Program-made: the position numbers and the translations under genes
Part shown: positions 35,956 to 57,539 of the stretch, one piece after another
Position numbering within the stretch: position 1 is the stretch's first letter
How the letters are laid out: the number at the start of each line of letters is the position of its first letter
Assembly (NCBI GenBank): GCA_903887325.1
Contig: CAISPG010000132.1
Span: forward strand, 1 to 64,000
Direction: 5' to 3'
Source: an uncultured Burkholderiales bacterium
GTDB lineage: Bacteria > Pseudomonadota > Gammaproteobacteria > Burkholderiales > Burkholderiaceae_C
Length of the DNA: 64,000 bases
Notes under the pieces: generated by a model
Databases searched by the model: none
What the model was told of the DNA's origin: nothing
Seen by the model: only the letters and a program-made list of their open reading frames with translations

Positions 35956-38900
35956 TTAATTCATCACCTTCACAATCTCTTCCTCACTCCACACCGGCTT
36001 ACCCGGCGCATAACGCTGTCGCATCCATTGCACCAAGGCAACGATTTGCGTCTTGCTCAAACTCTGCTCAAACCCCGGCATAAAACCTATGTGGCGTGAC
36101 GCCGGTTGTTGCACGCCGTGCAAAATCACATTCACCACATTCGCCGGGCTGTCGCTGTGCAAATTACCGTTGAGCGCCAGCGGCTGATTCACACCCAACA
36201 GTTGCGGGCCGTCGCCGTCATGGTGGCAGGCGCTACAGCTGCCTGCAAACTGCCTGGCTGCCGCATCCGGCAAGGGCGCATGGTCTGCTGCAAAAGTCAC
36301 CTGCGCCATGGCGCGTGCATTGAAAGCCGCAACATCTAGGAAAGCCGCTGAAGGGTTGAACGAAGCCAAATACACCGCCATTGCTTGTATGTCTTGCTCA
36401 GGCACGGTTTGCAAATTACGCACCACTTGCGCCATCGGCCCGTTGGCTGTGCCGTGAAACCCTGTATGGCCTTTGCTCAGGTAATTGAAAAAATCCTGTT
36501 CGCGCCACGGCATGGGTGAATGGTTGAAACTTGTCAACGCCGGTGCTTGCCAACCATCGACATACGCGCCTTGCATGTACGCCGTTTGTTTTTGTTCGGC
36601 ACCCATCAGGTTGCGCGGTGTGTGGCATGCGCCGCAATGTGCCACACCGGTGACCAAATATTCACCTCTGTTCCATTGCGGTGTTTGCGTGCTGTCATAG
36701 CGGTCTGCTCTGTCTTGATGAAACAACGCATTCCAAACGGACAATAAGGGGCGCATGTTGAAACCCAACACCATGTCTGGCGCAGGTGTGGTTTGCGACA
36801 CCGGTGTTTGCGTCATCAACCAGGCGTAAAGCGCGGTCATGTCCTCATCGCTCATGCGCGCAAACGAGGTGAACGGAAACACGGGATACAAGGCGTGGCC
36901 ATCGCGCGACACGCCTTCGCGCATGGCACGCGCAAACGCCTGGTAAGACCATGCGCCTATGCCAGTATCCGGGTCGGGACTGAGATTGGTGCTGTAAACC
37001 GTGCCGTATGGCGTGACAAAGGCTTGGCCGCCTGCCAGTGGCATGCCCTGCTCTGCGGTGTGGCAACTGACGCAATTACCCATGGCGGCCAATTGCGCAC
37101 CTCGCTCGACTTGCGCTGCTGAAAACGAAGCACTTGCTGTTGTGACGCGCGGCAATACACTGCGCCAACCGACAACTGCCGCACCGACTGACAAAGCAGC
37201 CAACAACACACCACCCCACTGTTGCCATCGCCAAGCACTCAGCAAACCCGGTTGCTTGGAGCGCGGCACATCGGGCCGATGAACTTGCTCGGCTTGCGGT
37301 GTGGGTGTGCCGGGTGCGGCTATTGGATTGATCGCAGCACGCACGACTTCAGGCGTGAATGGCGGGTTGCGAAAGCGCACACCAGTGGCATCAAAAATCG
37401 CATTCGCAATCGCAGCGGTGCCGGGCACTGAAGACGATTCACCGGCACCCAAAGGGTCTTGCAATGGACGCGGCATTTGCACCATTTCAATCACCGGCAC
37501 TTGTCTGAAATTCAATATCGGGTAACTGCCCCACTCTGCACTGGTCACACTGCCATTCACGCTGTCGGTTTGCACTTGCTCCAGCAAGGCACGGCTGGTG
37601 GTTTGCAACACATTGCCATGCACTTGTTGTTCCACGCCTTTGGGGTTGATAACCCGGCCCGCATCATGCCCGACAACCACACGCTTGACCTGCACTTCGC
37701 CCGTGGTTTTGTTCACTTGCACATCGGCCACCCACGCCGCCCAAGCCGCACCAAAGCCCGGCCATTTGCTGTGGGTGTAACGCGCATACGCCACGCCCTG
37801 CCCTTGCAACCAATCGCCTTGCGGTGTTTGCTGTTGCGCTTGCGTGTGCGGCTTCCATCCTGCTTTGTCGGCAGTGGCTTGCAACACATCACGCGCGCGT
37901 TCATCGGGCAAATGCTTTAAACGAAATTGCAATGGGTCCACGCCCGCAGCGGTGGCGAGTTCATCAATGAAACTTTCATGCGCAAACGCATTCGGCAAAG
38001 CAGACACTCCGCGCAACCAAGACGCACGCAATATCGGCGGCATGTCGTTCACAGTAAGCCGCATGTCCGCGTAGTCATACGGCGGACGCGCGGTGCGGTC
38101 GCCCATCTCGAAACTGCGTGCCAAAGGCTCTACCGTGCGAGTCAGCAACAACGCCAGCGTGGTGGCACCGTTAGATGGATACGAAGTTTGAAAGTCATAA
38201 CCGCTGGGTTCACCACTGCCAGACAAACCGCCATGCACTTGCATGAGTTGCGCCGCGCCTTTGGGTTCCCACAGGTGTTCTTGCTCGCGGCTGAGTTGCA
38301 CCCGCACAGGTGCGCCCACGGCCTTGGATAACAGCGCCGCGTCTGCTGCCACGTCATCTGCGCCATTGCGGCCATAACAACCAGCGGCCTCCATGCGCAC
38401 CACATCGACTTGTATGTCACGCAGTCCGCACAGCAGCGCAATATCGGCGCGCAAAGCGTGCGGGTTTTGTGTGCCGGCCCAGATACGAAGTTGATAGGGC
38501 GATTCGTTTTCCTGCACCGGCTGCCAATGCGCCACCGCACACGACGGGCCGATGGACGCGTGCAACTGATAGGGCCACACATAAGTGCGTTGCAACTGTT
38601 GAGCAGCACCGCTTAAAGCTTGATCCACATCGCCTTCGTTGATCAACTGCCGCGCGGTCGACGGGTTGCGGCGGATGGCGTTTTCGGCATTGGACACATC
38701 CGGCATGCCAGGCCACGGTTTCCAAACCACGCTCAGTTCACGCATGGCTTGCTCGGCGTGTTCCTCGCGCTCGGCGACGATGCCGACAAAATCGCCTTGC
38801 ACCACGACAGAACGAATACCGGGTATATGCGCAATCGATTGCGCATCCACGCGTTCCAATGTTTTGCCGATGAAGTCACCGCTGTCAGCACCGGCATAAG

Positions 38901-39588
38901 GCGGTCGCACCACGCGCCCGTGCAACATGCCGGGCAAGCGCATGTCATGCACAAACACCAGCTCACCAAACACCTTGGCGGGTATGTCTATGCGAGGCAG
39001 GCTGTCACCTGACACGCTGTGTTGTTCCAATGGCTTGAGCGGGGTGTTCACGTCCAGCATCAGTTCAATATTCAAGCCCTTGAGCAAATGGCCCCAAGCC
39101 ACGGGTGCGCGGTCTTTGGCTTGAATGCCATCAGTCGTTAAGCGAAGTTCTTCAGCTGGCAACACCCATAAGCGGGCTGCTTGTTGCAACAACCATTGCG
39201 CGGCTTGCGCGGCTGCTGCACGCAAAGGGGCTGCGTGAATTTGTATCGATGCGCTGGCAATCGTCGCGCCCTGATTGGGCGACACACCGGTCATGCCCAT
39301 CACCATATGAACCCGCGATGGCGACGCAGACAATTCTTCAGCAACGATTTGCGTGAGCGCAGTGCGCAATCCCGTGCCTAAATCCACATGGCCGTGTAAG
39401 GCGGTGACGCTGCCGTCGTCCCACACCGCGATGAAACATTCCGCGCCTTCATCCGCTTGGCTGTAGACAAAAGCAGGTTGACCGGGTGCGGGCGGCGCAG
39501 CAGGCAATAGCGGGCGCACCACGCGCAACACACCTTGGGTGTCAAACAGATCAGCTCGGCTATGAACCTGTGCAGCGCGAATGCTCAT
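35956..39588 (-). CDS. Nicotinate-dehydrogenase-type molybdopterin subunit with C-terminal triheme cytochrome c domain
   Basis: Xanthine-dehydrogenase-family Mo domain (GVSPNQGATIAS, DELATAAGVDPLQFRLKHL), one TM (WGGVLLAALSVGAAVVGW) and three CxxCH motifs (CVSCH, CGACH, CSACH). Confidence 0.85.
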   Translation of the reverse strand: MSIRAAQVHSRADLFDTQGVLRVVRPLLPAAPPAPGQPAFVYSQADEGAECFIAVWDDGSVTALHGHVDLGTGLRTALTQIVAEELSASPSRVHMVMGMTGVSPNQGATIASASIQIHAAPLRAAAAQAAQWLLQQAARLWVLPAEELRLTTDGIQAKDRAPVAWGHLLKGLNIELMLDVNTPLKPLEQHSVSGDSLPRIDIPAKVFGELVFVHDMRLPGMLHGRVVRPPYAGADSGDFIGKTLERVDAQSIAHIPGIRSVVVQGDFVGIVAEREEHAEQAMRELSVVWKPWPGMPDVSNAENAIRRNPSTARQLINEGDVDQALSGAAQQLQRTYVWPYQLHASIGPSCAVAHWQPVQENESPYQLRIWAGTQNPHALRADIALLCGLRDIQVDVVRMEAAGCYGRNGADDVAADAALLSKAVGAPVRVQLSREQEHLWEPKGAAQLMQVHGGLSGSGEPSGYDFQTSYPSNGATTLALLLTRTVEPLARSFEMGDRTARPPYDYADMRLTVNDMPPILRASWLRGVSALPNAFAHESFIDELATAAGVDPLQFRLKHLPDERARDVLQATADKAGWKPHTQAQQQTPQGDWLQGQGVAYARYTHSKWPGFGAAWAAWVADVQVNKTTGEVQVKRVVVGHDAGRVINPKGVEQQVHGNVLQTTSRALLEQVQTDSVNGSVTSAEWGSYPILNFRQVPVIEMVQMPRPLQDPLGAGESSSVPGTAAIANAIFDATGVRFRNPPFTPEVVRAAINPIAAPGTPTPQAEQVHRPDVPRSKQPGLLSAWRWQQWGGVLLAALSVGAAVVGWRSVLPRVTTASASFSAAQVERGAQLAAMGNCVSCHTAEQGMPLAGGQAFVTPYGTVYSTNLSPDPDTGIGAWSYQAFARAMREGVSRDGHALYPVFPFTSFARMSDEDMTALYAWLMTQTPVSQTTPAPDMVLGFNMRPLLSVWNALFHQDRADRYDSTQTPQWNRGEYLVTGVAHCGACHTPRNLMGAEQKQTAYMQGAYVDGWQAPALTSFNHSPMPWREQDFFNYLSKGHTGFHGTANGPMAQVVRNLQTVPEQDIQAMAVYLASFNPSAAFLDVAAFNARAMAQVTFAADHAPLPDAAARQFAGSCSACHHDGDGPQLLGVNQPLALNGNLHSDSPANVVNVILHGVQQPASRHIGFMPGFEQSLSKTQIVALVQWMRQRYAPGKPVWSEEEIVKVMN

Positions 39589-40076
39589 GGGTGTTGCACT
39601 TGCATTAACTCGGCAGCGCGATGCACCGCCGCGATGATTTCCACATGTGTGCCGCAACGGCACAAATTGGCCGACAAGGCCTGACGTATTTGTTCGTCGG
39701 TGGGATGCGGATGACAGCGCAACAAAGCCACCGTCATCATCAACATGCCATTCAAACAATAGCCGCATTGCGCGGCCTGTGTGTCTATGAATGCCTGTTG
39801 CACCACATGCGGATGTTTTGCATTGCCCAGGCCTTCTAAAGTAGTGATGTCTCTGTCTTGCATTTCCAATGCAGGAATAACGCAAGCGCGGGCAGGTGTG
39901 CCATCTATCAGCACGGTGCAGGCACCGCATTCACCCAGACCGCAACCGAATTTGGGGGCATTCAACCCGAGGTCATTGCGCAGCACATGCAACAGCGTGG
40001 CGGCACTGCTCAAGGACAAATCAACAGTGCGTTGATTGACCTTGAGGGTGACGTCCACTGAACGCAACGCAGTCAT
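39585..40076 (-). CDS. 2Fe-2S subunit of a molybdenum hydroxylase (nicotinate dehydrogenase small-subunit type)
   Basis: GCGLGECGACTVLIDG and CGYCLNGMLM... LCRCGTHVEI. Confidence 0.9.
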   Translation of the reverse strand: MTALRSVDVTLKVNQRTVDLSLSSAATLLHVLRNDLGLNAPKFGCGLGECGACTVLIDGTPARACVIPALEMQDRDITTLEGLGNAKHPHVVQQAFIDTQAAQCGYCLNGMLMMTVALLRCHPHPTDEQIRQALSANLCRCGTHVEIIAAVHRAAELMQVQHP

Positions 40077-40099
40077 GTACGGCAGTGGTGCAAGTTTGA

Positions 40100-40822
40100 T
40101 CAGCCGATTTGAATATCACCGGACTGAATGCGTTTGACACCTTTTTCCGCCATGCTTTTCCAAGCAGCGGCGAGTGAGCCGTTTAAGTCGATGCCACGGC
40201 AGGCATCTTCCACCACTGACACTTCAAAACCAGCGGCGCGTGCGTCCATCGCCGTCCATGCCACGCAGAAGTCGGTGGCCAGTCCGGTGACAAACACTGT
40301 CTTGATGCCGCGTTGTTTCAAGTAGCCAGACAAACCGGTGGCGGTTTTGCCGTCGGCTTCCATGAAAGCAGAATAGCTGTCGACCTTGGGGTGGTAGCCT
40401 TTGCGAATGATCAACTGTGCAGACGGCAATGCCAGGTCTTTGTGCAACTCGGCGTCTTTGGTGCCTTGCACGCAATGGTCTGGCCACAACACCTGTGTGC
40501 CGTAGCTGAGCTTGGTGGTTTCAAAAGGCTTTTTGCCGCTGTATGCTGATGCGAAAGAAGCGTGACCTTGTGTGTGCCAGTCTTGAGTGACCACGATGTT
40601 GTCAAACGCTTTGGAAATGCGGTTGATCACCGGCACAACTTCCGAACCTTTGGCCACGGGCAAGGTGCCGCCTTCGACAAAACAATTTTGCACGTCAACC
40701 ACGATCAACACCGAGTCTTCACCCGGTTTGATTTTGCTGGCCGACCAAGCCCAAGGTGCCACCGCGCCCAATGCGCCCATGGTGCCCAGTGCTGTCAAAA
40801 GTTTTCTGCGATCTGCTTTCAT
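40100..40822 (-). CDS. Exported isochorismatase/nicotinamidase-family hydrolase
   Basis: N-terminal DRRKLLTALGTMGALGAVAPWAWSA; VLIVVDVQNCFVEGGTLPV, VTGLATDFCVAWTAMDA (nicotinamidase-type Asp, Cys). Confidence 0.8.
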   Translation of the reverse strand: MKADRRKLLTALGTMGALGAVAPWAWSASKIKPGEDSVLIVVDVQNCFVEGGTLPVAKGSEVVPVINRISKAFDNIVVTQDWHTQGHASFASAYSGKKPFETTKLSYGTQVLWPDHCVQGTKDAELHKDLALPSAQLIIRKGYHPKVDSYSAFMEADGKTATGLSGYLKQRGIKTVFVTGLATDFCVAWTAMDARAAGFEVSVVEDACRGIDLNGSLAAAWKSMAEKGVKRIQSGDIQIG

Positions 40823-40882
40823 TTGCTCTCTCCAATCAAGAACCGCACAACCCGTGCGTAGGGAAACTGGCTCAACTCTGAT

Positions 40883-41467
40883 TTACCGCAGGCCGTCTTT
40901 GCCCACGATCTCATGTATTTGTAATCCACCGATGCGCGGATGCGGTCTGCCGCTGTCAGTCACCACCACCGCCACCACGATTTCATTGGCACGCGGTGCA
41001 TCGGACACGCGCGCTTCCATCGCATCGAAATGGCTGCGCACAAAAGCCGCGACTTTGTGGCCCAAGGGCACATCCACTGCGGTACCCAGCGTGCCTTGTT
41101 TTTTCGCTGACGGCACGAGCGCAGCACCCTGGCTGACCGCTTTGCGCAAAGGCGCACCGAGCTTGGGATGCAGTATGGCAGCGGCGTGTTCCAGCTCACC
41201 GCCCTCACCGACGATGGCGGCTTTCCCATAGCTTTGCGCTTGTTCGGGTGCAATGCCCAAGGCCTGCACACAACGCTCGCCCAGCATTCCGCCTAACTCT
41301 TCGCCGATATCAATCAGTTCATCCAACGAATCACTGAAACGTCCGGCATACGGATTCGCAATCACTGCCATGGCCAACGCACGTCGTGTCGGCGGGTTCA
41401 CGGCTTTGCCGCCGTCCTGGTGAATTTCATCCACTTGCACAATGAGTTTTCTGATCTTGGCTTTCAT
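40883..41467 (-). CDS. Amino acid synthesis (AA_synth, PF06684) family protein
   Basis: RRALAMAVIANPYAGRFSDSLDELIDIG... GKAAIVGEGGELEHAAAILHP... RSHFDAMEARVSDAPRANEIVV. Confidence 0.75.
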   Translation of the reverse strand: MKAKIRKLIVQVDEIHQDGGKAVNPPTRRALAMAVIANPYAGRFSDSLDELIDIGEELGGMLGERCVQALGIAPEQAQSYGKAAIVGEGGELEHAAAILHPKLGAPLRKAVSQGAALVPSAKKQGTLGTAVDVPLGHKVAAFVRSHFDAMEARVSDAPRANEIVVAVVVTDSGRPHPRIGGLQIHEIVGKDGLR

Positions 41468-41483
41468 GCTGTCTCCCGCTCGT

Positions 41484-42137
41484 TCAACGCAAACCATTCC
41501 ATTGACTGATGTCGTGTGCTTTCAAACCACCCACGCGAGCATGCACACGCGCACCGGTGCTCATGGCCAATATGACGATGATTTCATCGGCACGCGGCGC
41601 ACCCGGCACACGCACTTCCATCGCATCGAAATGGCTGCGCACATAACTGGCGTTGATGTGGGTCAAGGGCACATCCAAGGTCGCGCCAGGCGGCCCCACT
41701 TTTTTGGTAGATGGCACGATAGACAAGGCATTGCCCGGTTGACCGGTGGGCTTGTCGCCGCCACCGCCTTGAATGTATGAAGCACGGTCGCCCTTCCATC
41801 CCAACAGTTCGCGCATGGCGTAACCGCCGGGCACATGCCACAGTGCACCGTGTTCGAGTTCACCTGCCGCGCCGACGATGGCACCTTTGCCGTAGCCTTG
41901 TATCTGGTCGGGCGTGACACCCATGGCATCGCAGAGTTTTTTGGCCAAGTCCACGCCCAAGGGATTAAGTGCTTCCATCATCGGCAGTATGTCTGCGTGG
42001 TACGCACCCGCATACGGATTGCGCAACACCGCAGCAATGGCACCACGCACCAGCGGTGTGTCTGCGGGCGGGCCAAACTCGTGGTGTATCTGTTCTGTTT
42101 GCGTGAATATGCGCCGCACATCAATCAAGTCACTCAT
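41484..42137 (-). CDS. Amino acid synthesis (AA_synth, PF06684) family protein, adjacent paralog
   Basis: GAIAAVLRNPYAGAYHADILPMMEALNPLG... GKGAIVGAAGELEHGALWHVPGGYAMRELL... RSHFDAMEVRVPGAPRADEIIV. Confidence 0.75.
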   Translation of the reverse strand: MSDLIDVRRIFTQTEQIHHEFGPPADTPLVRGAIAAVLRNPYAGAYHADILPMMEALNPLGVDLAKKLCDAMGVTPDQIQGYGKGAIVGAAGELEHGALWHVPGGYAMRELLGWKGDRASYIQGGGGDKPTGQPGNALSIVPSTKKVGPPGATLDVPLTHINASYVRSHFDAMEVRVPGAPRADEIIVILAMSTGARVHARVGGLKAHDISQWNGLR

Positions 42138-42139
42138 GC

Positions 42140-43021
42140 TTACACCCGACATTCCAAAGGTTCAGCCACGACCGCATGGCCTTGGCAAGATAAAAAGGCC
42201 GCGTGAATCAAACCACGCGACTGCATGTCACGGGCACAGTCTAGCCCGTGTTCCAGCGCCTGCTGCAATTGCTGCGCATGCAAAGGCGGCACGTCCACCG
42301 TCACCAAGCGCGCACCCAAATCGGTGTCGTCACGCAAACTGTCAGCGGGGCGGCGTTGAATGCGCCTTTCGTCAATATTGACTGCATTCGCAATCAGCGT
42401 GGCGGCCACATCGGCCTGCGCTGCTGTTGCCGCCAACACGGTCACGCTGTCTGCAATGCCTAATGAAAAACTGCGCCCTTGCCATCCGCTGGTGGCGATG
42501 CCGCGCACCGGCATGTCCGCCTCAATCACAAACGCGCCGTCAACCGATAACTCATGTGTTTGCCAGTTGCGCAATGCCTGCGCCATATCGCTCACCATGC
42601 CGATGCGCCAGCTTTCACCGGGTTGCATGTGCAAAGCAATATCGCCGCCGTTGTTCACATAGGCTTTGTGAATACCGGCTTGCATGAAACAAGGCAACAA
42701 CTCTTGCGCCACTGAACCCGCCACAGCGGCCATGGGTGTAACAAAACCATCGTGGCTGGCAAAAGCAGCTTGCGCAGTGGCGCGGTGCATGCGTTGCGCG
42801 ACAGGGTGCGTGAACACATGGTCTTCTAAAGCTGAAACGGCTTGTCTTAAATAGAACAACTCGCTCACCAGTTCAGGCAATATGCACTGGAAGCGTTGCC
42901 AAGTTTTTTCAATCGCATCAGCGCAAGCCTGCGGTTCACCCGCTAACTGCAAAACGATATCGATAGGGCCATGCTGAAAATGCCAACGGCCATCGGAGAG
43001 TGAACGGCGTTGTGCATGCAT
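42140..43021 (-). CDS. UPF0280 family (ApbE-like) protein
   Basis: SHDGFVTPMAAVAGSVAQELLP... KAYVNNGGDIALHM. Confidence 0.75.
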   Translation of the reverse strand: MHAQRRSLSDGRWHFQHGPIDIVLQLAGEPQACADAIEKTWQRFQCILPELVSELFYLRQAVSALEDHVFTHPVAQRMHRATAQAAFASHDGFVTPMAAVAGSVAQELLPCFMQAGIHKAYVNNGGDIALHMQPGESWRIGMVSDMAQALRNWQTHELSVDGAFVIEADMPVRGIATSGWQGRSFSLGIADSVTVLAATAAQADVAATLIANAVNIDERRIQRRPADSLRDDTDLGARLVTVDVPPLHAQQLQQALEHGLDCARDMQSRGLIHAAFLSCQGHAVVAEPLECRV

Positions 43022-43026
43022 GTGTG

Positions 43027-44628
43027 TCAGCCCAACATCGGTGGCGCATCCAGCGGCCAGGGCGATACATCAGAGGGCGGGTTCTCCCAGCGCATGTGTG
43101 TGGGTGCGCCGTCGTTATGCCATGCGCCGTTGCGCATGCTGTCGTCCAAAGTGCGCACAAAACCCATGTGCCCGCCCAATGACTGGTAGTCGCTCAAGCG
43201 CAAGGTGAATTCGATGGGCGCAACGATGGCCGGAGTGGGCACAGTGCCAAAACTGTTGGCTGGCATGCGCATCACATCCACCATCAAGGTGATGCCGCCG
43301 CCCGGCCACACATAAGCCGGTGCGCCGCCGCAACTCACATTCACCAAAGCTTGTTTGACTGCACGCGTCAGTTGTATCGGGTTGTCGGTGACACCCGAGC
43401 GCAAACTGCCGCCTGCACCTGCTAAGAACAACACCGATACCAAAGACGGTTCGCAGTTCTCACCTATACGCTCCACCACATGGCGCACTTCGCTGGGCAT
43501 CTCAGCAGGCTGCGGTTTTAAATGCTCGTCCAACACAAACCAAGCCGCGTGTTCGCCAGTGGTAGAAGTCATCAGCAAACGCAAACCCGGCCAGGCTTCT
43601 TCAGGGTTCCACTCGCCCAAGATAGACAAGGGGTCGGTGATGCTGGTGCCGCCCCAGCCCGTGCCAGGTTGCGCCACTTGGAAATAGCGCCCCGGCGTGG
43701 ACTTTCGCCCGTTGATTTTGATACCGCTGGGCTTCATATGTAAACAACGCCCGGCCTGGTGCTCGGTCAACACGCCGGTGATGTGGTCATCCACCACCAC
43801 CACCTCGTCGCACACGCCTAACCACTGACGCGCAAACATACCAATCGCCGCAGAGCCGCAACCCACACGCATGCGTTGCTCGGTGACACCATCGACCACC
43901 GGCGCATGACCGGCTTGCAAACCCAGCTTCGCGCCGTTTTCAATTTGCACTTCCAAAGCCTGCTGGTTGCCCAACTTATGCATCAACTCCAAGGCCATGC
44001 GGCCTTGTTTTTTGCTGCCGCCTGTCAAGTGATGCACGCCGCCCAAGCTGAGCATTTGCGAGCCGTATTCAGCAGTGGTGACGTGGCCAACTTCTTCGCC
44101 TTGGTAAAGCACCGCAGCGCGTTCATCGCCGATGTAACGGTCGGTGTCTATCTTCACCTTGAGGCTGCAATAACTGAAGATGCCTTCGGTGACCACGGTC
44201 ACCATGTCGACACCGCGCGACTTGGACGCGACGATGAAAGGTGCAGGTTTGTAATCCGGGTAGGTGGTGGATGCCCCTATGCCGGTGACGAAAACGCCCT
44301 TTTCTTCATTTTCAAGCGTGGTCAGTGTTTGCGGCAAAGCGTCTGCGTCTGTTCTTGGGTTAAAGCTCAGAGGCTGGTCTTGTGCGCTTGCTTGTCTATT
44401 GAGAAACACCACCGGGTCTAAGCGCACCAGCACACCATCGTGATTGGCATAGCGGTCACACGCGCCCACGCGTCCTTCGGATATCTGGCACAACACCGGA
44501 CAGGCATTGCATTCCACCTTTCCTTCACGCACCGGCCCATGCTTGGGCTCGACCCGCTGCAACCCCAATGGCAGGCCCGAATCTGTCGCGGGCAAGCCAT
44601 CGGTGTGTGTAGTGCTGGGTGTGTTCAT
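43027..44628 (-). CDS. 6-hydroxynicotinate reductase-like iron-sulfur protein
   Basis: VECNACPVLCQISEGRVGACDRYANHDGVLVRLDP cluster motif and overall recall of this family; next to an enamidase-like gene. Confidence 0.65.
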   Translation of the reverse strand: MNTPSTTHTDGLPATDSGLPLGLQRVEPKHGPVREGKVECNACPVLCQISEGRVGACDRYANHDGVLVRLDPVVFLNRQASAQDQPLSFNPRTDADALPQTLTTLENEEKGVFVTGIGASTTYPDYKPAPFIVASKSRGVDMVTVVTEGIFSYCSLKVKIDTDRYIGDERAAVLYQGEEVGHVTTAEYGSQMLSLGGVHHLTGGSKKQGRMALELMHKLGNQQALEVQIENGAKLGLQAGHAPVVDGVTEQRMRVGCGSAAIGMFARQWLGVCDEVVVVDDHITGVLTEHQAGRCLHMKPSGIKINGRKSTPGRYFQVAQPGTGWGGTSITDPLSILGEWNPEEAWPGLRLLMTSTTGEHAAWFVLDEHLKPQPAEMPSEVRHVVERIGENCEPSLVSVLFLAGAGGSLRSGVTDNPIQLTRAVKQALVNVSCGGAPAYVWPGGGITLMVDVMRMPANSFGTVPTPAIVAPIEFTLRLSDYQSLGGHMGFVRTLDDSMRNGAWHNDGAPTHMRWENPPSDVSPWPLDAPPMLG

Positions 44629-44726
44629 GCCATTCGTGGGTTGGAGAATCAAAGCAAAGACCAAGACGCATTATGCTTGTGGCTGCACCTCGCACAGAGT
44701 CAAACATTAGTTCCAAGGAGTTCGTC

Positions 44727-45917
44727 ATGGCCACCGCAGCAACCGAAGAAGCATCCGGCAAAGTCGTCATTAAAAACATAGGACTGCTGCTCTCCGGCGA
44801 TATAGACAAACCCATTTTGGAAGCAGACACCATCGTCGTCATGGACGGCATCATCACCGCAGTGGGCAAATTCAAAGACGTAGACACCGAGGGCGCGAAA
44901 ACCACCATCGATGTGCGCCAAACCTGCGTGGCACCCGGTCTGATAGACAGCCATGTGCACCCGGTGTTCGGCGACTGGACACCGCGACAAAACCAAATCG
45001 GCTGGATCGACTCCACCATGAACGGCGGTGTCACCACCATGGTGTCTGCCGGTGAAGTGCATTTGCCCGGTCGGCCCAAAGACATCGTCGGCTTGAAAGC
45101 CTTGGCCATCACCGCGCAACGCGCGTTCAGCAACTTCCGCCCCGGCGGTGTGAAAGTGATTGCGGGTGCACCCATCATCGAAAAAGGCATGACCGAACAC
45201 GACTTTGCAGAACTCGCCTCGGCGGGCGTGACGCTCTTGGGTGAAGTGGGATTGGGTTCAGTCAAAGCCGGATATGAAGCCAAAGAAATGGTGGCCTGGG
45301 CACGCAAGCACGGCATACAAAGCACCATTCACACTGGCGGGCCGTCTATTCCCGGCTCAGGCTTGATCGACAAAGACGTGGTGCTGGAAGCCGACGCGGA
45401 TGTGATCGGCCATATCAACGGCGGCCATACTTCATTGAGCGAAGCCCATGTGTGCGAGTTGTGCGAGAAGTCCAGCCGCGCGATTGAAATCGTGCACAAC
45501 GGCAACGAGCGCGTGGCGATTGCAGCCGCCAAAGCCGCACTGAAATTGAAATGCCCGCACCGCGTGATCTTGGGCACTGACGGCCCCGCAGGTTCAGGCG
45601 TGCAACCGCTGGGCATGTTGCGCATGGTGGCATTGCTGTCCAGCTTGGCGAACATTCCCGCTGAGTTGGTGTTTTGTTTTGCCACCGGCAACACGGCACG
45701 CATACGCAATTTGAATTGCGGCTTGATAGAAGTAGGACGCGCTGCTGACTTTGTGTTCATGGACCGCGCACAACACACCGCCGGACGCAATTTGCTGGAG
45801 AGCGTGCAACTCGGCGACATACCCGGCGTTGGCATGGTGATGATTGATGGGTTGGTGCGCTGCCAGCGCTCGCGCAATACACCTCCAGCGACAGAGATAC
45901 CGGTAATCGTGCTTTGA
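44727..45917 (+). CDS. Enamidase-like amidohydrolase (6-oxo-1,4,5,6-tetrahydronicotinate ring opening)
   Basis: VVIKNIGLLLSGDIDKPILEADTIVVMDGIITAVG, GGVTTMVSAGEVHLPGRPKDIVGLKALAIT, C-terminal SRNTPPA; resembles Eubacterium barkeri enamidase from memory. Confidence 0.75.
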   Translation: MATAATEEASGKVVIKNIGLLLSGDIDKPILEADTIVVMDGIITAVGKFKDVDTEGAKTTIDVRQTCVAPGLIDSHVHPVFGDWTPRQNQIGWIDSTMNGGVTTMVSAGEVHLPGRPKDIVGLKALAITAQRAFSNFRPGGVKVIAGAPIIEKGMTEHDFAELASAGVTLLGEVGLGSVKAGYEAKEMVAWARKHGIQSTIHTGGPSIPGSGLIDKDVVLEADADVIGHINGGHTSLSEAHVCELCEKSSRAIEIVHNGNERVAIAAAKAALKLKCPHRVILGTDGPAGSGVQPLGMLRMVALLSSLANIPAELVFCFATGNTARIRNLNCGLIEVGRAADFVFMDRAQHTAGRNLLESVQLGDIPGVGMVMIDGLVRCQRSRNTPPATEIPVIVL

Positions 45918-47488
45918 GTTTTCCCACCTTGTTGTTCCATTCACCCATTTATCTCATCCCGACGCCTGCCAAGCGCTGGCTGGGCTTGGCCAGTTGGAGC
46001 TTCGCTTGGTTGCTGCTGTGGTTTTGTGACGGTGTGCTGAATTTAGGCAATTTGGCCTTGCTGCTGGTATTGGGTAGCGCCATGGCCGGTATATGGTTAT
46101 CACCCATTGCTTCCTTGCTGGCATGCGTGTGTTCGGTGATGATGTTCAACTGGTTGTTTGTACCGCCGCGCTTCACTTTTAACGTTGACCTCAACCAAGA
46201 CTTGTTGCTGCTGGTCACCATGCTGGGTGTGAGCGCCATGGTCAGTTATTCCATGTCAAGACTGCGTTCCGCGGCTCAGCTGGAAAACGAACACGCCGCC
46301 GACTCTGAAAAAATGCGAATACTGGGCGAACAGTTTCGAGATGTCACACAAGCGGGATTGCGCGGCGAGTTATTGCGAACCGCTTTGCAACAACACATGC
46401 AATCCAATGTCATGCTGTTGCTGGCAAATGAATTTGCTGCACCTGATATGCATGGTGAAGCCATTTACTTAGGACAACCGGACAAGCAAATCAAAGAGGG
46501 CCTGCACAGTTGCATGAATACGCTTGCAGCTTTAGGACCGGGAACCGGTCGGTTTGAAAACCAAAGCACTTTATTCTTACCCATCAGGGGCAGAACCAAA
46601 GCCTTCGGTGCAGTGGCTATTCAAGAGCGGAAATTGGCGGACATATCGCAGGCCAAACGCGCCTACCTGCAACAAATGTGTGATTTGCTTGGCCTGGAAA
46701 TTGAGCGCGACCACACCTTGAAACAAGCGCAACTCTCTAACGAAGAAGCACACAACCAACGCATACGCAACACCTTGTTGACTTCTATCTCGCATGACTA
46801 CCGCACCCCCTTGGCTAACTTGATTGGCGCAGCCTCGGTCATCCATTCGCAACACCCCAAACTGAGCACCGGGCAAGTGACACAGCTGGCCAACACCGTG
46901 CTGGTAGAGGCGCAACACCTGAACCGCATGACCAGCAACACCTTGCAACTGGCACGCTTGGATGCAGCGCCTTGGCGGGTGCACAAAGACTGGGAGTCGT
47001 TGCAAGAAGTGGTGGGCTCGGTGCTGGCCACGACCCGGCGGCGTTACCCGCACAGACAGATAGAAGTACACGTGCCTGATGGTCTTCCATTGGTGTTTTG
47101 CGATGCCATGCTGCTGGTGCAGTTGCTGGACAACCTGATAGAAAACGCCATCAAGTACAGCGGTGACGATGAGCACATACAAATAAAAGCCGCACAAGAC
47201 ACACAAGAAATACAACTGCGTGTGATAGACCACGGGCGCGGCATTCCCGACCCGTGGAAAGACAAAGTGTTTCAAGCGTTTGAGCGCATGCACGAAGACG
47301 ACGCGCAAGCCGATGCAAGTGACAACAGCCAACTCAGACGCGGCGTAGGCGTAGGACTGGCCGTGTGCAAAGCGATTGCCAATGTGCACCATGCCCGCAT
47401 CTGGATTGAAGACACCCAACCCACTGGTGCCACGCTGTGCGTGGCGTTTCCTCTTGAAGCACAGCCCATGCTGCACACAGAGGATTGA
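45914..47488 (+). CDS. KdpD-like sensor histidine kinase (DUF4118 membrane domain, GAF-like, HisKA/HATPase), no N-terminal KdpD/USP domain
   Basis: Four TMs, MMFNWLFVPPRFTFNVDLNQDLLLL; SISHDYRTPLANLIGAA H-box; N/G boxes. TTG start overlaps the upstream stop. Confidence 0.85.
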   Translation: MSFPTLLFHSPIYLIPTPAKRWLGLASWSFAWLLLWFCDGVLNLGNLALLLVLGSAMAGIWLSPIASLLACVCSVMMFNWLFVPPRFTFNVDLNQDLLLLVTMLGVSAMVSYSMSRLRSAAQLENEHAADSEKMRILGEQFRDVTQAGLRGELLRTALQQHMQSNVMLLLANEFAAPDMHGEAIYLGQPDKQIKEGLHSCMNTLAALGPGTGRFENQSTLFLPIRGRTKAFGAVAIQERKLADISQAKRAYLQQMCDLLGLEIERDHTLKQAQLSNEEAHNQRIRNTLLTSISHDYRTPLANLIGAASVIHSQHPKLSTGQVTQLANTVLVEAQHLNRMTSNTLQLARLDAAPWRVHKDWESLQEVVGSVLATTRRRYPHRQIEVHVPDGLPLVFCDAMLLVQLLDNLIENAIKYSGDDEHIQIKAAQDTQEIQLRVIDHGRGIPDPWKDKVFQAFERMHEDDAQADASDNSQLRRGVGVGLAVCKAIANVHHARIWIEDTQPTGATLCVAFPLEAQPMLHTED

Positions 47489-47493
47489 CCCGC

Positions 47494-48198
47494 ATGGCAT
47501 TGCACGTGTTGTTGGTGGAAGATGACCGCGAACTGCGCCGCACACTGCGCGATGCATTGACCGTGGAAGGCTATGAAGTGCAAGTCAGCGGCAGTGCAGC
47601 AGATGCAAACGCGGTGTTGAAACACGCGATGCCTTCCCTCACACCGCTGGACTTGTTGATCTTGGACTTAGGGCTGCCCGACGGCGACGGCGCAGACTTG
47701 CTGCACAGCGTGCGGAGCAAATACAAACTGCCTGTGCTGATCATCTCGGCGCGGCATGACGAAGACAACAAAGTGCATTTGCTGGATGCCGGTGCGGACG
47801 ATTACCTGGTGAAGCCCTTCAGCATCAACGAATTGTTAGCCCGCATGCGCGTGAGCTTACGCCACAGAGGCACCACTGTGCAAGCCGCGCAAACTGTTTA
47901 CCAATGCCACAGCCTGCATATTGACTTGGCCAAACACGAGGTGAGTAAAGCAGGTGAAGCCGTGCACCTGACACCGACAGAATTCAAACTGCTGGCCCGG
48001 CTGGTGCGCCAAGCCGGGCAAGTGGTGACGCACCGGCAATTGCTGGTTGATGTGTGGGGCGCAGAGTTTGTGCAGCACACCCATTACCTGCGTTTGTACA
48101 TGGCGCAATTGCGCGCCAAGCTGGAAGACAACCCGACCGAACCGCAATTGCTGCTGACCGAACCGGGGGTGGGGTATAGGTTGTTTGAGGGGGTGTAA
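47494..48198 (+). CDS. OmpR/KdpE-family response regulator
   Basis: VLLVEDDRELRRTLRDAL... LLILDLGLPDGDGADLL... KPFSINELLARMR; winged-helix C-terminus. Confidence 0.9.
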   Translation: MALHVLLVEDDRELRRTLRDALTVEGYEVQVSGSAADANAVLKHAMPSLTPLDLLILDLGLPDGDGADLLHSVRSKYKLPVLIISARHDEDNKVHLLDAGADDYLVKPFSINELLARMRVSLRHRGTTVQAAQTVYQCHSLHIDLAKHEVSKAGEAVHLTPTEFKLLARLVRQAGQVVTHRQLLVDVWGAEFVQHTHYLRLYMAQLRAKLEDNPTEPQLLLTEPGVGYRLFEGV

Positions 48199-48322: not shown

Positions 48323-48598
48323 ATGATATCTGTTCGCTTACCTGATGCCGTAGAGCTCGAGTTAAATCAGTATTGCGCGTCTCGCAATCTGACCAAATCG
48401 CATGTGGTGCAAGAAGCGCTAGCTGAATACATGGTCGCAGTTAAAGCTGCTGCTCCAACCAAACCGTTGCCCGAACCTGACCTTTCGTTTCTACCTGAGA
48501 ACGATCCAATCCGTCAATTTATCGGTATTGCCAAACAAGGGCCAAGCACCCACGAATGGATGGCCATCACCCGAGGCGACGATTGGAACAAGCCATGA
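48323..48598 (+). CDS. CopG/ribbon-helix-helix antitoxin (VapB-like)
   Basis: MISVRLPDAVELELNQYCASRNLTKSHVVQEALAEYM; ATGA overlap with the PIN-domain gene. Confidence 0.85.
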   Translation: MISVRLPDAVELELNQYCASRNLTKSHVVQEALAEYMVAVKAAAPTKPLPEPDLSFLPENDPIRQFIGIAKQGPSTHEWMAITRGDDWNKP

Positions 48599-48990
48599 TT
48601 TTGGTGGATACGAATGTACTGCTGGATGTAGTCAAGGCCGACCCTATTTGGATGCCTTGGTCCTTGCTTCAATTACGTAGCGCGAAGACGGGGCAACTGG
48701 CTACCAATATGGTGGTTTATGCCGAGTTAGCCGCATACCCCACCACGTCTGATCAACTTAATCCATTTTTAGACACACTGAATATTCAAGTGCTCGATTT
48801 AACACGCCCTGCTGCGCGATTGGCAGGACAGGCATTCCGCGAATACCGTCAGCGCGGTGGTATCAAGACTGGCGTATTGCCTGATTTTTTCATCGGCGCA
48901 CATGCTCAAGCAGAAAAATACAAATTACTGACTCGTGATGCGGGACGCTACAAAACCTATTTCCCCAAAATCAAATTGATTTGCCCTTGA
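48595..48990 (+). CDS. vapC: PIN-domain toxin (VapC-like)
   Basis: MILVDTNVLLDVVKADP... VVYAELAAYP... LPDFFIGAHAQAEKYKLLTRDAGRYKTYFP. Confidence 0.92.
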   Translation: MILVDTNVLLDVVKADPIWMPWSLLQLRSAKTGQLATNMVVYAELAAYPTTSDQLNPFLDTLNIQVLDLTRPAARLAGQAFREYRQRGGIKTGVLPDFFIGAHAQAEKYKLLTRDAGRYKTYFPKIKLICP

Positions 48991-49087: not shown

Positions 49088-50995
49088 ATGTCAGAGGTTT
49101 CCACAGACGCAGACAACCCGTCCGCGCATATTAAACGCCAATCCACCGCAGCGCTGACGCTGGCCGCTATTGGGGTGGTGTACGGCGACATAGGCACCAG
49201 CCCGTTGTACACAGTGAAGGAAGTGTTTTTACCGGCCACCGGTGTGGCCCTGACACCCGAGAACCTAATCGGTGCGGTGTCCACCATTTTTTGGGCGTTG
49301 ATGTTGATCGTCACCTTGAAATATGTGATTTTGATTTTGCGCGCGGACAACCGTGGCGAAGGCGGTGCCTTGGCGCTGACCGCACTGGCGGCGAACGCGG
49401 TCAAGGACAAACCTTTCTTGCGTCAGTCCTTGATGATGATGGGTTTGTTCGGCGCGACCTTATTTTACGGCGACAGCGTGATCACACCTGCGATTTCTGT
49501 GATTGGTGCGGTCGAAGGTTTGGAGATGGTCACGCCTGTGCTGACCCCATTTGTGGTGCCTATTTCAGTGGCGGTGTTGTTGTTGCTGTTTTTGATGCAA
49601 CGCTTTGGCACGCAGTTGGTGGGCAAATTTTTCGGGCCCATCATTGTTGTCTGGTTCTCTGTGTTAGGGCTCACCGGTATTTTAGAAATTATTCAGCAAC
49701 CCACTATCTTGCAAGCCTTGAATCCTTTGAATGCCGCTGTGTTTTTATGGAACAGAGGCCCGTTCATTTTGGCGGCAGTGGGCGCAGTCGTGTTGGCACT
49801 GACCGGTGCAGAAGCTTTGTACGCGGACATGGGGCATTTTGGTCGCAAGCCTATTCAAATGGCGTGGATGACTTTGGTGTTGCCGGGTTTGGCACTGCAT
49901 TACATGGGCCAAGGCGCATTGTTGATGCGTGACCCCAGCGCCATTGAAAACCCGTTCTTTCGCATGTTTCCGCCATCGTGGTTGATACCTGCAGTGGTGC
50001 TGGCCACAGTGGCTGCTGTGATTGCGTCTCAAGCAGTAATCTCTGGCGCTTACTCGATGACTAAGCAAGCCATATTGCTGGGCTTTTTACCGCGCATGGA
50101 CATCAAATACACCTCGGAAAATGAGGTCGGTCAAATTTACATGCCCGCCGTCAACTGGATATTGCTGGTCGGCGTGGTGGCTGCGGTGCTGGCTTTCAAG
50201 AGCTCTTCTGCATTGGCTGGTGCTTACGGTATTGCGGTGACACTGACCATGGTGATCACCACCACGCTGACCTTTTTTGTGGTGCGTGACGCATGGAAAC
50301 TGCCCTTGGTGCTGGCCATTGCTGCCACCGTGTTTTTCTTAAGCATAGATGTGTTTTTGTTTGCCGGTTGCATCATCAAATTCTTTGACGGCGGTTGGTT
50401 TCCGCTGGTGATGGGACTGAGTTTGTTTGCCGTGATGACCACCTGGTCCAAAGGCCGAAGCCTGGTGGTGGAAACCATCAGACGTGACGGACTGGACTTG
50501 CAGTCCTTCATTCAATCCATTGAAGCAGGTCACAACCACTTGATTCAACGCACAGCTGTTTACGCCGTGGCCAACCCTGAGACCGTGCCGCAAGCCTTAC
50601 TGCACAACATGAAGCACAACCAGGTGCTGCATGAGAAAAACATCATCATGACGGTGAAGTTTGATGAAGTGCCGTGGGTGTCTGACAAGCAGCGCGTGAA
50701 AGTAGAAAAAATCAGCGAGCACTTTTGGCAAGTGGTGCTGACTTACGGTTTCATGAACACGCCGGATGTGCCCAAAGCTTTGATGTTGTGCCAGCAGTTC
50801 GGGCTGGACATACCAGCCTTTGAAACCACGTATTTTCTGAGCCGCGAAACCGTGGTGCCTACACCGGGCGGCGGCATGGCGCAGTGGCGGGAAAAAATGT
50901 TTGCCGCCATGACACGCAATTCGGGCGGCATTGTGGAGTTTTTCCATTTGCCTGATAACTCGGTGGTGGAGCTTGGTACGAGGGTACAAATATGA
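49088..50995 (+). CDS. kup: Kup-family potassium transporter
   Basis: [36 protein letters not shown]; 635 aa. Confidence 0.96.
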
Positions 50996-55710: not shown

Positions 55711-56684
55711 GGCTTGGCTCCCAGGGTCAGCGCAGGGTCAATCACGGCAGGGAATACATTTGGATAAGGTGGTGCTAGGCCGTGCTTGATCGCCCACAAA
55801 TACCAGTTATCAACCACAGTGCCGGTCAACAAAATACCAATACCGCCTGTCAATGGACACAGCACAGCAAACCACCAGGCCCAACGGTGTATAGATTCCA
55901 TGGTTGCGTTAAAACCCATTGTCCAACGCCAGAAAAGTGCGGCCCGCTCTGAAGCTGTTCCGCGGTCGACGATTTGCTCGATTTCACGCTCGCCGCCAAA
56001 GCGAGTGACCGCCAGAATGGTGGCACCGTGCATGGCGAACAGCAGCACTGATCCGTACAAAAACACGATCGACAAAGCATGGAACGGGTTGTAGAACAAG
56101 TTGCCATAACGGATGGATAAGGCGGCTGTCCAATCCAGGTGCGGGAAGATGCCGTAAGGCACTGCCTCACCCCATGAACCCATCAGAATGGGACGAAACA
56201 AACCCAATACAAACATCAACCACAAGGCAGCGGCAAAAGCCCAGGCCACGTGTGTTCCCATGCCCAATGCAATGGCGCGTCGGTACATACGCACCCACCA
56301 AGCCAATACCGAGATGGACAACAATAAACCCACGATTAAGAACCAGCCGCCTTGGTTAAGCGGCGGCAGTGACAAGCCGTACTCAGGCGGAGGCGGCTCA
56401 AGCGCCAGCCAAAATAATTGACGCACCAGTTGCACTGGATCCCAGTTGACAGATGCCAGCATGTTCAATCCGATGATATTGAACGCCAGCATGCCGCACA
56501 CCAGCGACAGAACACCAAAGCCACCGAGGTAAATGGGACCGAGTTGGGCATTACCGATTTTGCCCAGCAGCCAGAAAATAGCCGGATGTCCGAAGCGGGT
56601 GTCATTACCCGGGCCTAAATCGACACCGTGGTGTACCGGCCCTTTGGCCTGCACAGTCGTGAAGAGGTTGTAGTAGTCAGCCAT
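55707..56684 (-). CDS. pufM: Photosynthetic reaction centre M subunit
   Basis: [26 protein letters not shown]... [50 protein letters not shown]. Confidence 0.98.
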
Positions 56685-56705
56685 GAGATTTGCTCCTGTC
56701 AAGCA

Positions 56706-57539
56706 TTAAGGCCACTGTGACCAAATGGGCAGATTGAGCCACCAGCCCCACCATTCAGGCCAACCTCGGCTCCAGAACGGTCCACTGATAACTATGCACA
56801 AGGCACTGAATGCCACGGCAGCCATCGCCAGAAAAACGCCCAGCCGGTGAATACCCAGAGTACCAATGGAGTAGCCGATGGTGTCGCGGAAAAATGTATC
56901 TTCGTGCTCCGGCGTCTTGACGACTTGTCCCATACCGGGGTTGGTGGCTGACAAAATCAAAGCACCGTGCAAAGAAAGTGCAAATACGGTGGCGAAGAAG
57001 AAACTGACTGCCAGCATGTGTGCTGGGTTGTAATGAAAGTGCAAGTACTGGTAGCCGACGTTGGACACCCAGTCCAGGTGACTGTAAATGCCGTAAGGGA
57101 AACCATGTCCCCAGGCACCCATCAACACCGGGCGAATCACTTCAAGCGTGAAGTACGCGAATATCGCCATGCTGAATGCCGCCGGCACGTGATAGCCCAT
57201 GCCCAACTTGCGACAAATTTCAACTTCACGCAGCATCCAAGACACGAACGCACCCAACGCGCAAATGGTAATGAGTTGCCACAAGCCGCCTTCCATCAGC
57301 GGCGCAAAGCGCAGACCGTAGGAAAGATTGGGCGGCGCAATATTGATTTGCCACAGATTCCAAGTCGGCCCCTGAGAGGCTCCCCACAAAATCATGGCTG
57401 TGCCTAAAAAGGCAAAAAAGATGGTCGTGATGCCGAAAAATCCGACATAGAACGGGCCTAACCAAAAGTCAAACAAATCACCAGCGACCAGGGTCCCGCC
57501 CCGCACTCGGTATTTTTTTTCAAAACTGAGCATGGCCAT
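56706..57539 (-). CDS. pufL: Photosynthetic reaction centre L subunit
   Basis: [37 protein letters not shown]... [29 protein letters not shown]. Confidence 0.98.

Follow-up and report, generated by a model that had tools for sequence, protein, structure and literature searches.

Probable reductive nicotinate degradation cluster of the Azorhizobium type among the photosynthesis genes of an uncultured Burkholderiales bacterium

The 64,000-nucleotide stretch analysed here (the window; positions 1 to 64,000 of contig CAISPG010000132.1) comes from an uncultured Burkholderiales bacterium whose genome measures 2.47 Mb and is 99.96% complete. Between positions 35956 and 45917 it carries what we take, with considerable confidence, to be a cluster for the reductive degradation of nicotinamide and nicotinate, of the type known from Azorhizobium and in a trimmed form. 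We infer the activities of all its products, and this reading includes electron supply to 6-hydroxynicotinate reductase (Hnr) through ferredoxin-NADP reductase (Fpr) and the ferredoxin FdxA, a role for the UPF0280 protein in the flavin of Hnr, and a rearranged location. The members of the locus are as follows.

35956..39588, minus strand: nicB-like large subunit of nicotinate dehydrogenase, 1210 aa, with MoCoBD_1/2 and cytochrome c domains
39585..40076, minus strand: nicA-like 2Fe-2S subunit, by library match
40100..40822, minus strand: predicted nicotinamidase of the isochorismatase fold, above the NCBIfam cut-off of NF008623 (189 vs 174 bits)
40883..41497, minus strand: PF06684 (AA_synth/DUF1185) protein 2, from a family with a chorismate-mutase-like fold, by domain match; linked to enamidase
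41484..42152, minus strand: PF06684 (AA_synth/DUF1185) protein 1, paralogue of protein 2, by domain match
42140..43021, minus strand: UPF0280 protein with the ApbE (FAD:protein FMN transferase) fold, NF003322 at 368 bits against a cut-off of 290
43027..44628, minus strand: Hnr, by annotated homologues and an N-terminal CxxCPxxCx9C iron-sulfur motif
44629..44726, no strand: 98-bp intergenic region between the divergent hnr and ena; relatives have fpr and a tetR gene at this place, some of them fdxA too
44727..45917, plus strand: enamidase (Ena), a bimetal amidohydrolase predicted to open 6-oxo-tetrahydronicotinate, by match to 2VUN

All genes named in the initial annotation of this DNA are open and intact at the coordinates it gave, and three members that it had missed, the UPF0280 gene and the two PF06684 genes, belong to the conserved cluster. 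The genes form a tight minus-strand block, nicB-nicA-nam-aas2-aas1-UPF0280-hnr when read along the plus strand, from which ena diverges. The block was described as lying inside a photosynthesis gene cluster, and so it does, with crtB and crtI on its left and crtC, crtD and the reaction-centre genes (Photo_RC at 55776-57452) on its right. Public records hold the identical order hnr-UPF0280-AA_synth-AA_synth-ABC-2Fe-2S-Mo, in which fpr and tetR separate hnr from the amidohydrolase gene, and one record, a marine plasmid, names nicA, nicB, hnr and nicR together. Since the identical gene set and order recur across the family and in distant phyla, chance assembly is excluded.

The assignment of the 43027-44628 product to Hnr, proposed earlier by resemblance, holds at the level of the sequence family of the Eubacterium barkeri enzyme. 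Homologues with 59-70% identity carry the name '6-hydroxynicotinate reductase' in public records, and family members in E. barkeri-like Bacillota are ~41% identical, while the Hnr proteins of Bradyrhizobiaceae strain SG-6C and E. barkeri are reported to be 42% identical to each other (PMC3511419). The alignment shows one N-terminal four-cysteine motif, CxxCPxxCx9C, together with invariant Cys257 and Cys392, and the protein is predicted to reduce 6-hydroxynicotinate with iron-sulfur and covalent flavin cofactors. By sequence it matched nothing in Pfam, NCBIfam or the PDB. An AlphaFold model built from 33 sequences reached a predicted local distance difference test score (pLDDT) of 82.6, with most core blocks above 90, and had no PDB match at E <=0.001; Hnr may thus have a fold that lacks a PDB counterpart. 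The search for a PDB relative, by sequence or by fold, returned only a weak local likeness to the GCV_T C-terminal barrel.

Identification of the 44727-45917 product as an enamidase is also borne out. It matches the solved structure of the E. barkeri enamidase, 2VUN, along its full length (residues 11-390 to residues 2-381; 365.9 bits, E 2.9e-108) and keeps every metal-ligand stretch (HVH, E, H, H and D), all of them invariant in the alignment. A scan with an alignment headed by 2VUN returned 80 enamidase loci, from Bacillota, Desulfobacterota, Chloroflexi and Alpha- and Betaproteobacteria among others.

The two-subunit molybdenum/2Fe-2S/triheme-cytochrome-c dehydrogenase recognised in the initial annotation is present as a 2Fe-2S subunit and a molybdenum subunit with three c-heme sites. 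The large subunit, whose true start was placed at ~39588 by its overlap with nicA, contains exactly three CxxCH motifs (residues 839, 985 and 1118) and one hydrophobic stretch at ~residue 793. Its context points to nicotinate as the substrate, and the same architecture serves other substrates too. The isochorismatase-fold hydrolase is likewise real: it passes the nicotinamidase family cut-off, has the active-site stretches DVQNCF, WHTQGHASF, RKGYHP and TDFCV, and would feed the pathway. A twin-arginine-like leader can be read at its N-terminus (MKADRRKLLTALG...), because of which the enzyme is probably exported, and this suggests that nicotinamide may be hydrolysed outside the cytoplasm.

Taken together, the Ena and Hnr assignments, the nicotinamidase feed and the lack of PF02073 relatives described below support the route from nicotinate through 6-hydroxynicotinate and 6-oxo-tetrahydronicotinate to 2-formylglutarate that had been suggested for this locus. 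The nicotinamidase, recognised by its family and bearing a leader that suggests export, would release nicotinate, presumably outside the cytoplasm. The NicAB-type enzyme would then hydroxylate C6 and, judging from its domain layout, pass electrons via three c hemes to the respiratory chain. Hnr would carry out a four-electron reduction of 6-hydroxynicotinate to 6-oxo-tetrahydronicotinate, with NADPH electrons arriving via Fpr and FdxA if the gene context of relatives is a guide, and its flavin may be supplied by the UPF0280 protein with its ApbE fold. Ena would finally open the ring to 2-formylglutarate and ammonia, and its linkage to the PF06684 pair suggests that the pair assists at this step or just after it.

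A hybrid of cytochrome-linked oxidation and reductive ring cleavage had been put forward for this locus, and the genes for both are indeed together, but the combination is not new, and it extends as far as Bacillota and Desulfobacterota. The same cluster was described in 2012 in Azorhizobium caulinodans, Bradyrhizobium japonicum, Rhodopseudomonas palustris HaA2 and Bradyrhizobiaceae SG-6C, with genes for the first three steps, an ATP-binding cassette (ABC) transporter and two conserved unknown proteins (PMC3511419). That paper cites Kitts 1989 and 1992 for the biochemical demonstration of the hybrid route in A. caulinodans (PMC3511419), and the Azorhizobium route has been treated as being of the E. 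barkeri type (PMC9304392); on these two sources, a respiratory first step joined to reductive ring opening is already established. These organisms are aerobes on the reductive route through 6-oxo-tetrahydronicotinate (THON), as the bacterium here would be, and at least one phototrophic species is among them. The locus in the window has nicAB, hnr and ena with both conserved unknown proteins, as in the Azorhizobium-type reductive cluster. Unlike those clusters it lacks the ABC transporter, Fpr and TetR genes, has a nicotinamidase gene and lies inside photosynthesis genes. The nicotinate ABC transporter, absent from the cluster throughout the window's clade, is a typical and not a defining feature.

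The nicotinate fermentation of E. barkeri (ndh, hnr, ena and further genes) has the Hnr and enamidase steps in common with our cluster, and in Bacillota relatives of E. barkeri UPF0280 adjoins hnr and PF06684 adjoins ena, as here. However, the E. barkeri dehydrogenase is a four-subunit FAD/selenium enzyme, whereas the one here is a NicAB-type cytochrome enzyme, and no methyleneglutarate-branch genes lie in the window. Pseudomonas putida NicAB is the same kind of two-subunit Mo/2Fe-2S/triheme dehydrogenase for the first hydroxylation. In contrast to the aerobic nic pathway of that species, the ring here would be reduced and hydrolysed, not oxidised. The reported absence of NicX agrees with our results, as PF02073 (M29 peptidases), which we take to be the NicX family, had no match in a genome-wide search that was positive in control genomes and did not take in NicC. 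The oxidative NicX route is accordingly not supported by this search.

Of 51 loci, which range from Bacillota to Proteobacteria, 47 have a UPF0280 gene no more than 600 bp from hnr, and contig ends cut 3 of the 4 exceptions. A profile search with the protein found first one unnamed structure and then mainly ApbE-type FMN transferases (weakly, E ~0.005; the next six matches were all ApbE). Its AlphaFold model (pLDDT 94.4) had DVU1097 or ApbE/FmnB/Ftp proteins as its top 41 Foldseek matches (probability 1.00). The protein shares with the ApbE/FmnB/Ftp FAD:protein FMN transferases the fold and the Asp and Ser of the catalytic triad, both invariant, as well as a conserved ADxxAT stretch. Unlike them, it has no leader, and the ApbE general-base histidine (His257 in Vibrio cholerae; PMC12052999) has no counterpart in the UPF0280 alignment, in which no histidine is invariant. 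A canonical ApbE target in Hnr was also rejected, with no flavinylation motif (D..[ST]GA[TS]-type) in the 33 Hnr sequences. Because of the missing histidine and the missing motif, we do not file UPF0280 as ApbE.

Alhapel (2006) reportedly found a covalently bound flavin in the E. barkeri Hnr. On this point and on the evidence from fold and gene linkage, we prefer to see UPF0280 as a factor for the flavin maturation of Hnr, a proposal that we consider evenly balanced. For the flavin step alone, UPF0280 might not be a flavin transferase: it could instead be a relative that binds or hydrolyses FAD, or serve Hnr as an electron-transfer or structural partner. The lack of a general base and of a target motif, and the existence of FAD-hydrolase activity among ApbE relatives, make this a serious alternative whose chances fall a little below even, given the conservation of two of the three triad positions and of ADxxAT and the flavin reportedly bound in E. 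barkeri Hnr.

The PF06684 genes follow ena. Of the 80 ena loci, 75 carry PF06684 in their flanks, among them 22 of the 25 in which hnr was not found. The family has a chorismate-mutase-like fold (PMC2954203), and both genes here belong to it with BB2672, SPO0826, HcdD and TgnF. TgnF has been reported to stimulate one step of the pathway by which trigonelline, another pyridine derivative, is cleaved and degraded (PMC7913881). Unlike those four, the PF06684 genes here stand in tandem and are tied to the enamidase gene. This linkage suggests a role at ring opening or just following it, and the presence of PF06684 in Bacillota of the fermenting type argues against a purely decarboxylase role. In Bacillota, Chloroflexi and actinobacterial loci (L112, L113, L115, L130, L132, L133, L136, L137 and L140), ena stands directly beside PF06684 with no hnr in the flanks; loci of this kind possibly encode a related pathway for another enamide. 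A broader and more doubtful proposal is that flavin transferases have a second class, cytoplasmic and represented by UPF0280, which equips Hnr, itself of a fold not in the PDB, by means of a reworked ApbE site, and that enamidase cannot do without the PF06684 pair in handling the ring-opening product. If true, two widespread orphan families would thereby gain functions.

For the electrons used by Hnr, the simplest chain would run from NADPH through Fpr and FdxA, as gene context in relatives suggests. Among 15 relatives, 13 have fpr between hnr and ena and 13 have a tetR gene there, and fpr adjoins ena in Azorhizobium doebereinerae, Afipia and Aquabacter. A gene for the FdxA ferredoxin (NF045490, above cut-off) lies inside the cluster of six genomes, A. 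doebereinerae included. The clusters of the window's clade have neither gene, and Fpr (86% identity) and FdxA (60%) are encoded elsewhere in this genome. Three Hnr proteins from anaerobe-type loci (L104, L111, L125) carry a two-cluster ferredoxin domain at the N-terminus, an electron donor of their own, and this fits a ferredoxin as the donor.

Location had also suggested that phototrophic metabolism supplies the low-potential electrons. In its full form, this explanation holds that the reductive step is coupled to photosynthesis, either by light-driven electrons passing to Hnr or by the NicB cytochromes feeding the reaction centre, hence the position of the genes. In seven genomes of the window's clade, hnr does lie ~6-11 kb from pufLM on one contig. 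Within the genus, reaction-centre genes occur in 27 of 30 genomes with hnr and in 29 of 54 without it (Fisher p = 0.0007, a statistic that ignores relatedness), and among genomes at least 90% complete the figures are 12/13 and 14/31 (p = 0.006, relatedness again ignored). However, within the genus Hnr falls into a single clade, and reaction-centre genes are found in only 6 of 32 family genomes with hnr outside the genus and in 2 of 11 further out. A sister genome (G205, locus L055) has the identical nic-kdpDE-kup block with puf on a different contig, and another genome (G228, 99% complete) has hnr and no puf. Since relatives encode fpr, and some of them fdxA, within the cluster, phototrophic electrons are not needed. 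Photosynthesis as electron source is thus not favoured by distribution or by the neighbours in relatives, and we judge the coupling to be quite improbable. Most plausibly, rearrangement in one clade, with trimming, set the block among photosynthesis genes, which makes the placement a derived state and not a functional requirement.

That the cluster serves another N-heterocycle, such as a substituted pyridine, with nicotinate as a side substrate, has in its favour the varied neighbours of Hnr and Ena homologues across many phyla, the ena-PF06684 loci with no hnr in the flanks, where related enzymes may act on other enamides, and the channelling of 6-chloronicotinate into the same pathway by strain SG-6C (PMC3511419), but it is most improbable in view of a cluster nicotinamidase above its family cut-off, a NicR-type regulator annotated beside hnr on a marine plasmid and an Azorhizobium route that, on the account given in PMC3511419, is established for nicotinate.

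Several points weigh against the reductive, Azorhizobium-type reading set out above. Fpr is often the sole, housekeeping copy of its genome and occurs in genomes without hnr as well, so chance may account in part for its presence among these genes. Relatives have an uptake ABC transporter and a TetR regulator that the cluster here lacks, and the oxidative route was searched for through PF02073 and not through NicC. No enzyme for the fate of 2-formylglutarate was found within the window, and for a downstream route through glutarate none of the acyl-CoA dehydrogenases of the genome that were tested reached the cut-off for glutaryl-CoA dehydrogenase, with a model of the Desulfo-type.

Phylogeny places the trimmed form in context. 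Of 201 family genomes, 33 (about 1 in 6) carry hnr, as do 30 of 84 in the genus and 34 of 399 in a phylum sample, one of the latter by a marginal match only. In the Hnr tree the genus makes up one group (99% support in the SH-like approximate likelihood ratio test, SH-aLRT), inside which the genomes that lack the ABC transporter branch together as a derived group (99%), so the trimmed cluster is most simply a state of loss. Elsewhere, 26 plasmid records carry hnr, 12 of them from Sulfitobacter, which indicates that plasmids spread the module among marine bacteria. On a 102-kb plasmid of a marine Paracoccaceae (CP031593, locus L191), nicAB, hnr, UPF0280-like, AA_synth-like and nicR genes form one cluster.

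In the window, genes for a KdpD/KdpE-like two-component system (45914-48198) and a Kup potassium transporter (49088-50995) come directly after ena. A VapBC-like toxin-antitoxin pair, a small ribbon-helix-helix-like gene followed by a PIN-domain gene (48323-48990), also lies in this photosynthesis-cluster region.

Reductive opening of the nicotinate ring in aerobes is known and little studied. What is new here is the ApbE fold of the UPF0280 protein beside hnr, the finding that PF06684 follows ena even where hnr was not found, and a predicted Hnr structure unmatched in the PDB. Comparison across genomes yields testable roles for UPF0280, for PF06684, and for Fpr and FdxA as an aerobe's supply of low-potential electrons to Hnr. 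As for the tie to photosynthesis that the location had suggested, rearrangement in a single clade of small-genome phototrophs accounts for it best, yet the joint occurrence of hnr and reaction-centre genes inside the genus is noteworthy. The cluster very probably lets a small-genome photosynthetic bacterium degrade vitamin B3, as nicotinamide and nicotinate.

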